From NCBI GenBank assembly GCA_947476255.1, contig CANJPY010000001.1, positions 53,768-117,767 on the forward strand: a stretch of 64,000 nucleotides of DNA, read 5' to 3'. The DNA comes from Chthoniobacteraceae bacterium (GTDB taxonomy: Bacteria > Verrucomicrobiota > Verrucomicrobiia > Chthoniobacterales > Chthoniobacteraceae). Below, in pieces: positions 60,216 through 64,000 of this stretch (its first letter is position 1; each line of letters opens with the position of its first letter). The translations under genes and the position numbers were made by a program. The notes beneath the pieces are model-generated. The model was not told the origin of the DNA and searched no databases. It saw only the letters and a program-made list of their open reading frames with translations.

Positions 60216-62759
60216 GTGAACCAGTGGGCTCTTTCCCTCCTCGGCCCCGCAGGGCTCATCTCGCGATTTGAATCTGGGACGGCGCATTTTGTCCTCGGGA
60301 CAGAGGAGGCGCCTGATGTATTGCGGGTGAATGGCGAAGGCGTGGCCGCGCGTCACGCTTGGGTGTGGATTGCGGACGGCAGCATGCAGGTTGAGGACCT
60401 TGTCGGCGGCACCTTGGTGAACGGACATCCTGTGAGCGGACGGGTCCAGATAGACTATCCGGCTTCGGTGCAAGTTGGAGACGTGACGTTGGTGGTGGTA
60501 CACAAGGAACATGCCGAAACCGAGGGGGCCATTACCCTCCCGCAGCGCTCGAATCGGGCACCGTCAAAGAGTCCCGGTGGACTGCTCGAGTCGCCAGTGA
60601 GCACCGTCCTGCCACCTCCCGAAGGTCTGGCGGGTACGCATTGTCAGTACCGGTTGTTGCGTGAAATTGCGCGGGGTGGGATGGGGCGCATTTATTTCGG
60701 AGAAGATGCGCAGCTTAAGCGAAACGTCGCGGTGAAGGTGAGCAGCATCAGTGAGCAAGGGGTGGATGCGCGTTTTTCTAAGGAGGCTGAGGTCCTTGCT
60801 CTATTGGCGCACCCCAACATCGTGCCAATTTATGCGCAAGGGATGGACAGTTCGAACCGTCCCTTTTATTCAATGAAGCTCGTGAATGGGCGGACGCTAC
60901 AGGCCCTGCTAAATGCGATCCGCGACGGCGAGGCGTTAGCGGTGAAGGAGTACCCCCGGGCGGCGCTGCTAACCATTTTCCGGAAGGTGTGCGATGCCCT
61001 AGCGTTTGCGCACGCAAAGGGTGTGTTACACCGCGACCTCAAACCGGAGAACATCATGGTAGGGGAATACGGGGAGGTGCTCGTAATGGACTGGGGCCTG
61101 GCCAAGGTTCTGGGGAGTGACGAGACGCTCGGTGCGACGAGATCACCTGCAAAGGGTACGGCCGATTACGGAATGACGATGGAGGGGGAGGTTATGGGGA
61201 CGCCTCAGTACATGTCGCCCGAACAAGCCGAGGGAATGGTGGCTGAACTCGACGTGCGCTCGGACATTTATTCGCTCGGCGGGATCCTCTACGCGATACT
61301 CACGATGCGCCCGCCGATTGACGGTAAGACGCTGGACGAGGTGCTCACCAAGGTAAAGAAGGGCGAGATCACCTCGATGGCGATCAAGGGGGACGCAAAA
61401 ACGGGCGCGGTTATGGGCACGCTAGTGTCCAAGGGTGTAGAGGTGCCTGAGGCCTTGCAGGCGGTGACACTCAAGGCCATGGCCACGGACCGAACGACGC
61501 GCTATGCGGGCGTGGTTGCATTTGCGAAGGACATTGAATCTTACCAAAACGGGTTTGCCACGAGTGCGGAGAATGCGGGGGCATGGAAGCGCGTGAAGCT
61601 GTGGGTTGGCCGCAACAAGGGGTTGGCGGGAGCAACGGCAGTCTTGATGCTTGTAGTCAGTGGCTTCACGGCACGCGTGATTCAGAAAGGACAAGAGGCC
61701 ACCGAGGCGCTCAGAAGTTTGGCGGATACGGCGCCGACGTTTGCCCTTCGGGCTCAGGACGCCCTGCACTCAGGCGACTATGAGGAGGCATTGAAGGCGG
61801 TGTCGTTCGCCCTCCATCTTCATTCCTCCGTCGCGGAATACCATGTGATTCGGGGGAACATTTTGCAGCTTTTAGTACGCTGGCCTGAGGCAGTTGCAGA
61901 ATACCGGTTGGCCGGTGAGCATGAAATGGCGCAGAAAAATTTAATGCTCACTGAGGCGCTTATCGCCAAGGCCAAGGTAGAGGGGGAAAAAAAGGCCAAG
62001 GCCTTCCTGTTTGAGGCGCTGGGCGAACAAGGACGCCAGACCGAGGCGATGAGATTCGCGAGAGATCTCGAAGATTTTTGGAAAGGCCGAAAGGGCGATC
62101 CCAAAGCTCTCGCCGAACTAGTTCACCGCTTGGAATCAAAACTGCTGCCAGTGCCGGGGACAGGCGTTTTAATGTGTAAAACCGAGTTCACGGCAGGTGA
62201 GTGGAAGCTCTACGACAAAGCAACCCATCAGACTCTTTATGCGCAACCAGGCAGCTGGAAAAGGTCCGGGGTGGAGTTTGTGCAGGATGACAATCACCCC
62301 GTGGTTTACTGCAGTTGGAAAGCGGTTCAAGCCGTTGCCGAGTTTTTAAGTTCACAAACAGGCAAGGAATGGCGAGTGCCCACGAGTGCAGAATGGAACG
62401 CTGCCGTGGGACCTTCCAAGTATCCGTGGGGACAATATTATCCTCCCAACTGGGACGACGGAAATTACGCAGCAGGCGCAGGATTGGGACAGGATCCGGA
62501 AAAAAAAGGTTTCGATGGCATCTACGGCACAGCCCCAGTGGCATCATTTAAGCCTAATGCTTTGGGGTTCTATGATCTGGGAGGCAATGCCGCGGAATGG
62601 ACCGCGGATTTGGGGCCTGATAAAAAAGGCCCGCGCTTTCTTCGTGGTGGCTCGTGGATAAATTATAACGTTGGCTGCACATCCTCCTTCAAAGAAACCA
62701 ATCCTGAGACCTTCTCAGACAACACCACCGGGTTTCGCTTGGTGCGGGTGCAAAAATAA
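60216..62759 (+). CDS. FHA-like, Ser/Thr protein kinase and C-terminal formylglycine-enzyme (SUMF1)-like domain; GTG start
   Basis: Kinase REIARGGMGRIYFGEDAQLKRNVAVKVS, HRDLKPENIMVGEYGEVLVMDWGLAKV; FGE-like EWRVPTSAEWNAAVGPSKYPWG...FKPNALGFYDLGGNAAEWTADLGP...FLRGGSWINYNVGCTSSFKETNPETFSDNTTGFRLVRVQ. Confidence 0.93.
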   Translation: MNQWALSLLGPAGLISRFESGTAHFVLGTEEAPDVLRVNGEGVAARHAWVWIADGSMQVEDLVGGTLVNGHPVSGRVQIDYPASVQVGDVTLVVVHKEHAETEGAITLPQRSNRAPSKSPGGLLESPVSTVLPPPEGLAGTHCQYRLLREIARGGMGRIYFGEDAQLKRNVAVKVSSISEQGVDARFSKEAEVLALLAHPNIVPIYAQGMDSSNRPFYSMKLVNGRTLQALLNAIRDGEALAVKEYPRAALLTIFRKVCDALAFAHAKGVLHRDLKPENIMVGEYGEVLVMDWGLAKVLGSDETLGATRSPAKGTADYGMTMEGEVMGTPQYMSPEQAEGMVAELDVRSDIYSLGGILYAILTMRPPIDGKTLDEVLTKVKKGEITSMAIKGDAKTGAVMGTLVSKGVEVPEALQAVTLKAMATDRTTRYAGVVAFAKDIESYQNGFATSAENAGAWKRVKLWVGRNKGLAGATAVLMLVVSGFTARVIQKGQEATEALRSLADTAPTFALRAQDALHSGDYEEALKAVSFALHLHSSVAEYHVIRGNILQLLVRWPEAVAEYRLAGEHEMAQKNLMLTEALIAKAKVEGEKKAKAFLFEALGEQGRQTEAMRFARDLEDFWKGRKGDPKALAELVHRLESKLLPVPGTGVLMCKTEFTAGEWKLYDKATHQTLYAQPGSWKRSGVEFVQDDNHPVVYCSWKAVQAVAEFLSSQTGKEWRVPTSAEWNAAVGPSKYPWGQYYPPNWDDGNYAAGAGLGQDPEKKGFDGIYGTAPVASFKPNALGFYDLGGNAAEWTADLGPDKKGPRFLRGGSWINYNVGCTSSFKETNPETFSDNTTGFRLVRVQK

Positions 62760-62836
62760 CTAAGGTATTCTCCGCTTCGAACCACCCAGCGGGCGGGTGG
62801 ATGTCTTTTGTCGCAGGCGGCTTTTGGGGCCGCCGC

Positions 62837-62940
62837 TTGAGGCACTCAGAGGCCTCCCTTGAGGCACTCAGAGGCCGCCCTTGAGGCACTCAGAGGCCGC
62901 CCTTGAGGCACTCAGAGGCCTCCCTTGAGGCGCTCAGGGG
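62837..62940. repeat. 22-bp minisatellite, 4 full units plus partial fifth
   Basis: ttgaggcactcagaggcc[t/g]ccc repeated at 62837, 62859, 62881, 62903; degenerate ttgaggcgctcagggg at 62925. Confidence 0.95.
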
Positions 62941-63130
62941 CCGTGTGAGGGGGGCGACTAAACAGCTGCTCCGTCGTATTTTCGGTCTGAGCGCGCCCCG
63001 CAACAACGCCGTACACTCGACCCTCGGATACGGGATAAAAGGCGATTCCAGAATTTATGATGTGTCACAGCCTGCGCTAAAACACCATATTCAGCATCAT
63101 TTGGGGCAGGCTAATATGCCGCATTCTCGA

Positions 63131-63286: not shown

Positions 63287-63857
63287 TCAAGCAGGCGGCG
63301 GGGAGAATCCCAAACGATGAGACAGCCCGTCGGCGAAGTGCCTCACTTGCGGGCCAAGCTTGTCTAGTGCGCGCAGCGGCAGCCGCTCCGAGGGACCGCT
63401 GATCCAGATCGCGGCGACGGGAAGGCTGCGATGATCAAACACAGGCGCCGCGACGCACGCGAAAGTCTCGCTCTCTTCGCCTCGGTCGAGCGCGTAGCCG
63501 CATGCCTTCACTCGCTTCAATTCGGCGAGATAGACGGCGACGCTGGTCAGCGTGTGGCGCGTCTTTTTGCTAAACTCAAACTTCTGCACAAAAGCCTTCT
63601 GCGCCTCACCGCTCCAGTAGGCCAGCATCGCCTTTGCCGGTGCCGCTGTGTGCAGCGTAAAGGCGTGTCCGATTTCTACCACGACCTTCACCGGATGCGA
63701 CGACGGGATCTGATCAAGCACCACGCCATAATTTCCCGCCAGGGTTCCGAGCAGAGCCGTCTCCCCGGTGGCATTGCGCAGCGCCCTAAGGATGGGACCG
63801 GCAGCCTGCATCAAACGTTCCCCACCCACGGCCGCGTGTCCTAGACTCAGCAGTTTA
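63287..63857 (-). CDS. IclR family regulator, effector-binding domain (3' exon of an interrupted gene)
   Basis: KLLSLGHAAVGGERLMQAAGPILRALRNATGETALLGTLAGNYGVVLDQI...GHAFTLHTAAPAKAMLAYW...RVKACGYALDRGEESETFACVAAPVFDHRSLPVAAIWISGP; no HTH upstream in frame. Confidence 0.85.
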
Positions 63858-64000
63858 ATAGAGTAGGGAGACGAGGATGGTTTGCGGCCACAACCACTCC
63901 TTGTCCTCCTCTCCCCCTCATCGAACCGGACGGGCGGATTTCCCGCATCCGGCTCTCGGAGGCTGTTCTCCGGTTTGCTTCATTTGCATTGCCGTGTGGC
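63858..64000 (-). mobile_element. Group II intron 3' end (domains V and VI), continues beyond the window
   Basis: Reverse complement gAGCCGGATGCGGGAAATCCGCCCGTCCGGTTC (domain V, 63923-63955) followed by a GGGAGAGGAGGA...TCCTCGTCTCCC stem and CTACTCTAT terminus. Confidence 0.85.

Follow-up and report, generated by a model that had tools for sequence, protein, structure and literature searches.

At one end of the 64,000-nucleotide stretch of Chthoniobacteraceae DNA analysed here (the window), a group II intron directly abuts a fragment of an iclR-family regulator gene, and the locus raises the question of whether splicing can restore the regulator. The original prediction, made from the letters of the window, stated that the 3′ end of a group II intron is present, that a regulator gene lacking its wing-HTH half follows on the same strand, and that regulator expression may depend on the splicing of the intron. 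In our study, the intron end, the shared minus strand and the interruption of the gene were borne out, whereas restoration by splicing was not supported. The best explanation as a whole is probably that an intron of group IIC-like type homed to the end of a MITE lying in iclR, and that iclR is a pseudogene here.

The intron end and the interrupted iclR gene

The RF00029 (Intron_gpII) model of Rfam covered positions 63957-63858 (-) end to end with 52.2 bits (E 2.2e-7), the gathering cut-off being 40. Domain V was found to fold as a hairpin, GAGCCGGAUGCGGGAAAUCCGCCCGUCCGGUUC, with a 2-nt bulge, and its exact sequence occurred only once in the window. The folded domain VI contained a single bulged A, the predicted branch point, at 63864, 7 nt from the 3′ end, in agreement with the bulged A at 7-8 nt and the terminal AY of group II introns. 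The 3′ boundary was CTACTCTAT followed by T, the intron ending in CTAT. Owing to the many repeated copies of the intron, the window stops at the end of contig C1 (117767 bp), and only 143 nt of the intron are therefore visible; of the intron-encoded reverse transcriptase/maturase (IEP), just the last residues, in 21 nt, lie in the window and the remainder lies beyond the contig end. The features of the locus are given in Table 1.

Table 1. Coordinates of the intron and iclR features in the window
Feature	Positions	Strand	Basis
Intron, 3′-terminal 143 nt	63858..64000	(-)	Rfam match, 56 distinct junctions with a common boundary, and full-length relative copy L091
Intron domain V, catalytic hairpin	63923..63957	(-)	RF00029 match and fold
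Intron domain VI hairpin	63861..63919	(-)	Fold
Last codons (ATRQCK) and stop of the intron-encoded reverse transcriptase/maturase	63980..64000	(-)	Same as the ends of the intact IEP ORFs, in frame, of L090/L091
TAA flank directly 3′ of the intron	63855..63857	(-)	Agreement with the TWA flanks at the target sites of the MITE family
3′ fragment of the interrupted iclR-family regulator gene (wing end and effector domain, stop included)	63287..63857	(-)	Pfam IclR_C and orthologues

The frame past the intron junction was open for 189 codons, and its product matched Pfam IclR_C (PF01614) at 7.9e-37 over residues 8-180, almost the entire model. HTH_IclR was absent from this product in the Pfam search, whereas a functional IclR contains HTH_IclR and IclR_C in one protein. 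Genomes of the same genus were found to contain complete, intron-free iclR orthologues of 75-77% identity, which read through the site as YRASR followed by KLLSLGHAAVGGERL. IclR proteins therefore do not naturally begin at the junction, a possibility that the original prediction had raised against itself and that these orthologues exclude. Judged from its sequence, the iclR gene is truly broken. The junction lies inside a conserved Arg-Lys codon pair, and the 3′ exon begins in frame at the third base of the Arg codon; the codons past the junction (T-AAA-CTG) are compatible with an original CGT-AAA-CTG, and the orthologue at L063 contained TAA at the exact junction position.

The upstream HTH exon, which the original prediction had proposed to look for, was searched for with the HTH_IclR profile and with the orthologous N-terminus, and the assembly yielded only three intact paralogues. 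The SDR gene, the upstream neighbour of iclR in two relatives, had no close orthologue in the assembly, only paralogues at about 26-36%.

On the other side of the iclR fragment, between it and the neighbouring ORF, a 22-bp unit, GGCCGCCCTTGAGGCACTCAGA, was present in 5.2 tandem copies (62828-62943). An ORF of 847 aa at 60216-62759 (+) resembled, by eye, an FHA/Ser-Thr kinase fused to a formylglycine-generating-enzyme-like domain.

Copies of the intron and of a MITE in the genome

The genome contained 56 distinct 3′ junctions of the intron, and a burst of at least 56 copies has taken place in this Chthoniobacteraceae-related (Verrucomicrobiota) genome. The intron end was identical over all 143 nt in 14 placements, the window copy and 13 others, and dozens of places, most of them contig ends, contained its first 143-147 nt at near 100% identity. 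A T followed the intron at position +1 in 55 of the 56 junctions and TWA followed it in 48, the flanks of the other 8 not being TWA. The background of WA given a +1 T was 4.9%, and the binomial tail for the TWA flanks was 2e-55.

The same genome contained a family of MITEs. The main MITE was 462 bp long (on C47; 457 bp on C12) and formed one long imperfect hairpin with the ends CCTAAATGCGGCAATG and CATTGCCGTTTTTAGG, i.e., CCTAAA..TTTAGG, and with stops in all three frames read. A 206-nt MITE probe had 57 matches, and the left end was seen at 36 places, many of them at most a few hundred bp from a contig end. The left flanks read TWA-N-CCTAAA in 25 of 28 cases, and intron-free right ends of MITE type read TTTAGG-N-TWA in 51 of 62, a few of the 62 being chance matches or the sites of relatives. 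The elements are short, devoid of any ORF and present in many copies, with terminal inverted repeats and TWA flanks on both sides, as is characteristic of MITEs; both flanks of one copy were seen in few cases, and those of the C47 copy are TAA and TGA, not an exact repeat. TWA thus flanks both the 3′ end of the intron and the MITE, which places the intron precisely at the border of the MITE end and the TWA flank.

The 5′ junctions of the intron family assembled in this genome were only four (C122, C168, and the diverged C128 and C31). Mass 5′ truncation of the intron was considered as the cause and was rejected for most copies, as the repeats of MITE plus intron exceed the contig-end overlap. 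The MITE is longer than this overlap of about 143-147 nt and collapses the 5′ side, whereas the 3′ flanks are unique; therefore, the 3′ junctions were assembled and the 5′ junctions were not. Internally deleted or 5′-truncated copies do occur, on C3, C7, C23, C60, C61, and C168. The copies on C52, C127, and C182 had also been taken for truncated introns, and this was rejected, because a MITE interrupts the intron at TAATCGAG.

The latter three copies (L042, L164, and L163, respectively) contained the MITE at the same place and had three different 3′ flanks, which reflects either repeated insertion at one site or the spread of a MITE-bearing intron copy. At L050 (G000:C61, 1-728), a copy of the intron with an internal deletion carried, within its RT region, the 3′ end of another copy, and at L049 (G000:C129, 1-731) the intron 3′ end lay antisense beside the reverse transcriptase ORF of a different group II intron. 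In genome G005 of the same genus (L087, on C75, and other placements), domain V was up to 100% identical over 74 nt and domain VI had no match, which suggests a sister family of introns.

The ORFs abutting other intron copies on the sense side matched, in Pfam, DMFA2_C, ROK, an integrase, and an alpha/beta-hydrolase fragment, and an ORF on the antisense side matched a BNR-repeat. Since the copies have either orientation relative to the genes in which or next to which they lie, splicing that restores a gene is not a general property of this intron.

Full-length relatives and the pairing of EBS1 with 5′ exons

Full-length relatives of the intron, each with an intact reverse transcriptase/maturase ORF, were present in G013 (C43, L091), where the intron measured about 1947 nt from GTGCG, and in G009 (C284, L090). 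The IEP of L091 matched TIGR04416 (387 bits), RVT_1, and GIIM and so contained both the RT and the maturase parts. No HNH endonuclease family was found in this IEP, the ORF of which ended shortly past GIIM, just before domain V. Its best solved relatives, as ranked by phmmer and not by a class-labelled tree, were 7uim (6.7e-58) and, second, the GsI-IIC RT 6ar1. A hairpin, CCTAGAAACGGCAA..TTGCCGTTTTTAGG, of -37.8 kcal/mol was found directly upstream of the C122 intron copy. The element appears to be a mobile group II intron of IIC or class-C-like type.

The start GUGYG of group II introns was seen in the relatives as GTGCG, together with an EBS1 that covaries with IBS1; the window copy contains the 3′ end only. 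The 5′ exon preceding GTGCG was GCCGTTTTTAGGC (also given as TTTTTAGGC) in the C122 copy and CATCTAGGA in the C168 copy. In the relatives, it was TTTAGGT and TTTAGGC (G013) or TTTAGAA (G009 and G002). The visible 5′ exons of this intron type were the ends of palindromic repeats, either a hairpin or a MITE terminus ending in TTTAGGN or similar.

The loop before GAAGGCTGTCAGG in the relatives behaves as EBS1. Three variants covaried with their 5′ exons at 7 of 7 positions each (GCCTAAA with TTTAGGT, TTCTAAA with TTTAGAA, and GCTGGGG with CCCCAGC), and a fourth relative intron, with EBS1 GCCTGAG and exon CTAGGGC, paired at 6 of 7 by eye. The EBS1 of the intron in the present genome was taken from relatives about 98-99% alike over the 3′-terminal 143 nt, since no contig of its own spans EBS1. 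The C168 5′ exon, TCTAGGA, paired with GCCTAAA at only 5 of 7 positions. The GCTGGGG variant homes to a different palindrome and has TCCGCGG as its 3′ exon; thus only the T at +1 is the demand of the intron itself, and WA comes from the target of the MITE. The 5′ exon of iclR predicted from the orthologues (CAAGTCG/CCAGCCG) paired with EBS1 at 1-2 of 7 positions, in contrast to 7 of 7 for the MITE ends.

Proposed history of the locus and comparison with known systems

The proposed history consists of two steps. A MITE would have inserted in iclR at CG[TAA]ACTG (Arg-Lys-Leu), and the intron would then have retrohomed into the right end of the MITE, between the terminus and its TWA flank. In such targeting, base pairs would form between the EBS1 loop (5′-GCCTAAA) and TTTAGGN, the MITE terminus preceded by a hairpin. 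Even after excision of the intron, the mRNA would retain about 460 nt of MITE, in which every frame contains stops, and the function of the regulator would be lost. At iclR, the MITE on the unassembled 5′ side is inferred rather than seen, since the assembly lacks both the N-terminal exon and any close orthologue of the upstream neighbour. The iclR gene was most likely wrecked by the transposon and would not be repaired by splicing.

A direct insertion of the intron in iclR, with splicing that ligates two iclR exons and makes expression of the regulator intron-dependent, would agree with the common strand of intron and gene, with the position of the junction within the Arg-Lys codon pair and the in-frame 3′ exon, and with the intact domains V and VI. 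We consider it quite improbable, since the TAA flank and the identity with 13 other placements link the iclR copy to the burst of homing into MITEs, the 5′ exons at the visible junctions are MITE ends, the orthologue-predicted iclR exon hardly pairs with EBS1, sister copies adjoin genes in both orientations, and the N-terminal exon was not found in the genome. It is also rather unlikely that the iclR fragment and the intron were joined through a deletion or through recombination of intron (or MITE) copies with one another, so that no 5′ iclR exon lies opposite. More than 50 near-identical copies would be ample substrate for such an event, deleted and truncated copies exist, and both the iclR N-terminus and the upstream SDR orthologue are missing from the assembly; however, the TAA flank at the exact Arg-Lys codon of the orthologues fits a clean target-site insertion, and, with a genome completeness of 93% and 189 contigs of which the shortest measures about 3.1 kb, the missing exon could easily have been lost along with a short contig.

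In the genome as a whole, a parasitic partnership of two elements seems rather likely: a IIC-like intron that pairs with the hairpin-forming terminus of a MITE would follow the DNA transposon to more than 50 sites, genes included, in freshwater Verrucomicrobiota. With a transposon end as its homing site, a retroelement can in this way multiply to very many copies in the chromosome of a bacterium. The partnership would also explain the fragmentation of MAGs from such bacteria, the contigs of which end in the intron or the MITE, and it warns that an intron may lie in a gene in sense orientation without being capable of restoring it.

Class C (group IIC) introns insert after terminators or at attC sites (PMC4424553). 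The present intron, a candidate member of this class, resembles them in having an IEP without an endonuclease domain and apparently also in its insertion directly 3′ of a DNA hairpin plus a short IBS1, whereas it targets the end of dispersed MITEs flanked by T(W)A, and its IBS1 pairing covers 7 nt. Another group II intron, RmInt1 of Sinorhizobium meliloti, likewise uses a different mobile element, ISRm2011-2, as its homing target and spreads on the copies of this element (PMC5894124); however, RmInt1 belongs to class D and lies inside the IS in about 10 copies in strain GR4, whereas here at least 56 copies were found at the outer edge of non-autonomous MITEs. The introns of Thermosynechococcus elongatus occur in 28 copies, with EBS1 divergence into target families and nesting in mobile elements and introns (PMC2882425). 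High copy number, EBS1 divergence, and nesting are shared with the present intron, whereas the T. elongatus introns are IIB, and MITE ends as target and a higher number of copies were found here. In Ca. Thiomargarita nelsonii, 57 group II introns were reported alongside MITEs, as was an intron-MITE composite, the "MITEtron" (PMC4853749). Group II introns and MITEs thus coexist in both genomes; however, the MITEtron consists of a MITE borne by a group I intron, and the group II introns of that organism belong to IIB2 and have HNH, whereas in our study a group II intron targets the MITE ends. The literature searched, which leaves most subscription journals outside its scope, contained no description of a group II intron targeting MITE ends. 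The homing of group II introns into other mobile elements is already known from RmInt1 and T. elongatus.
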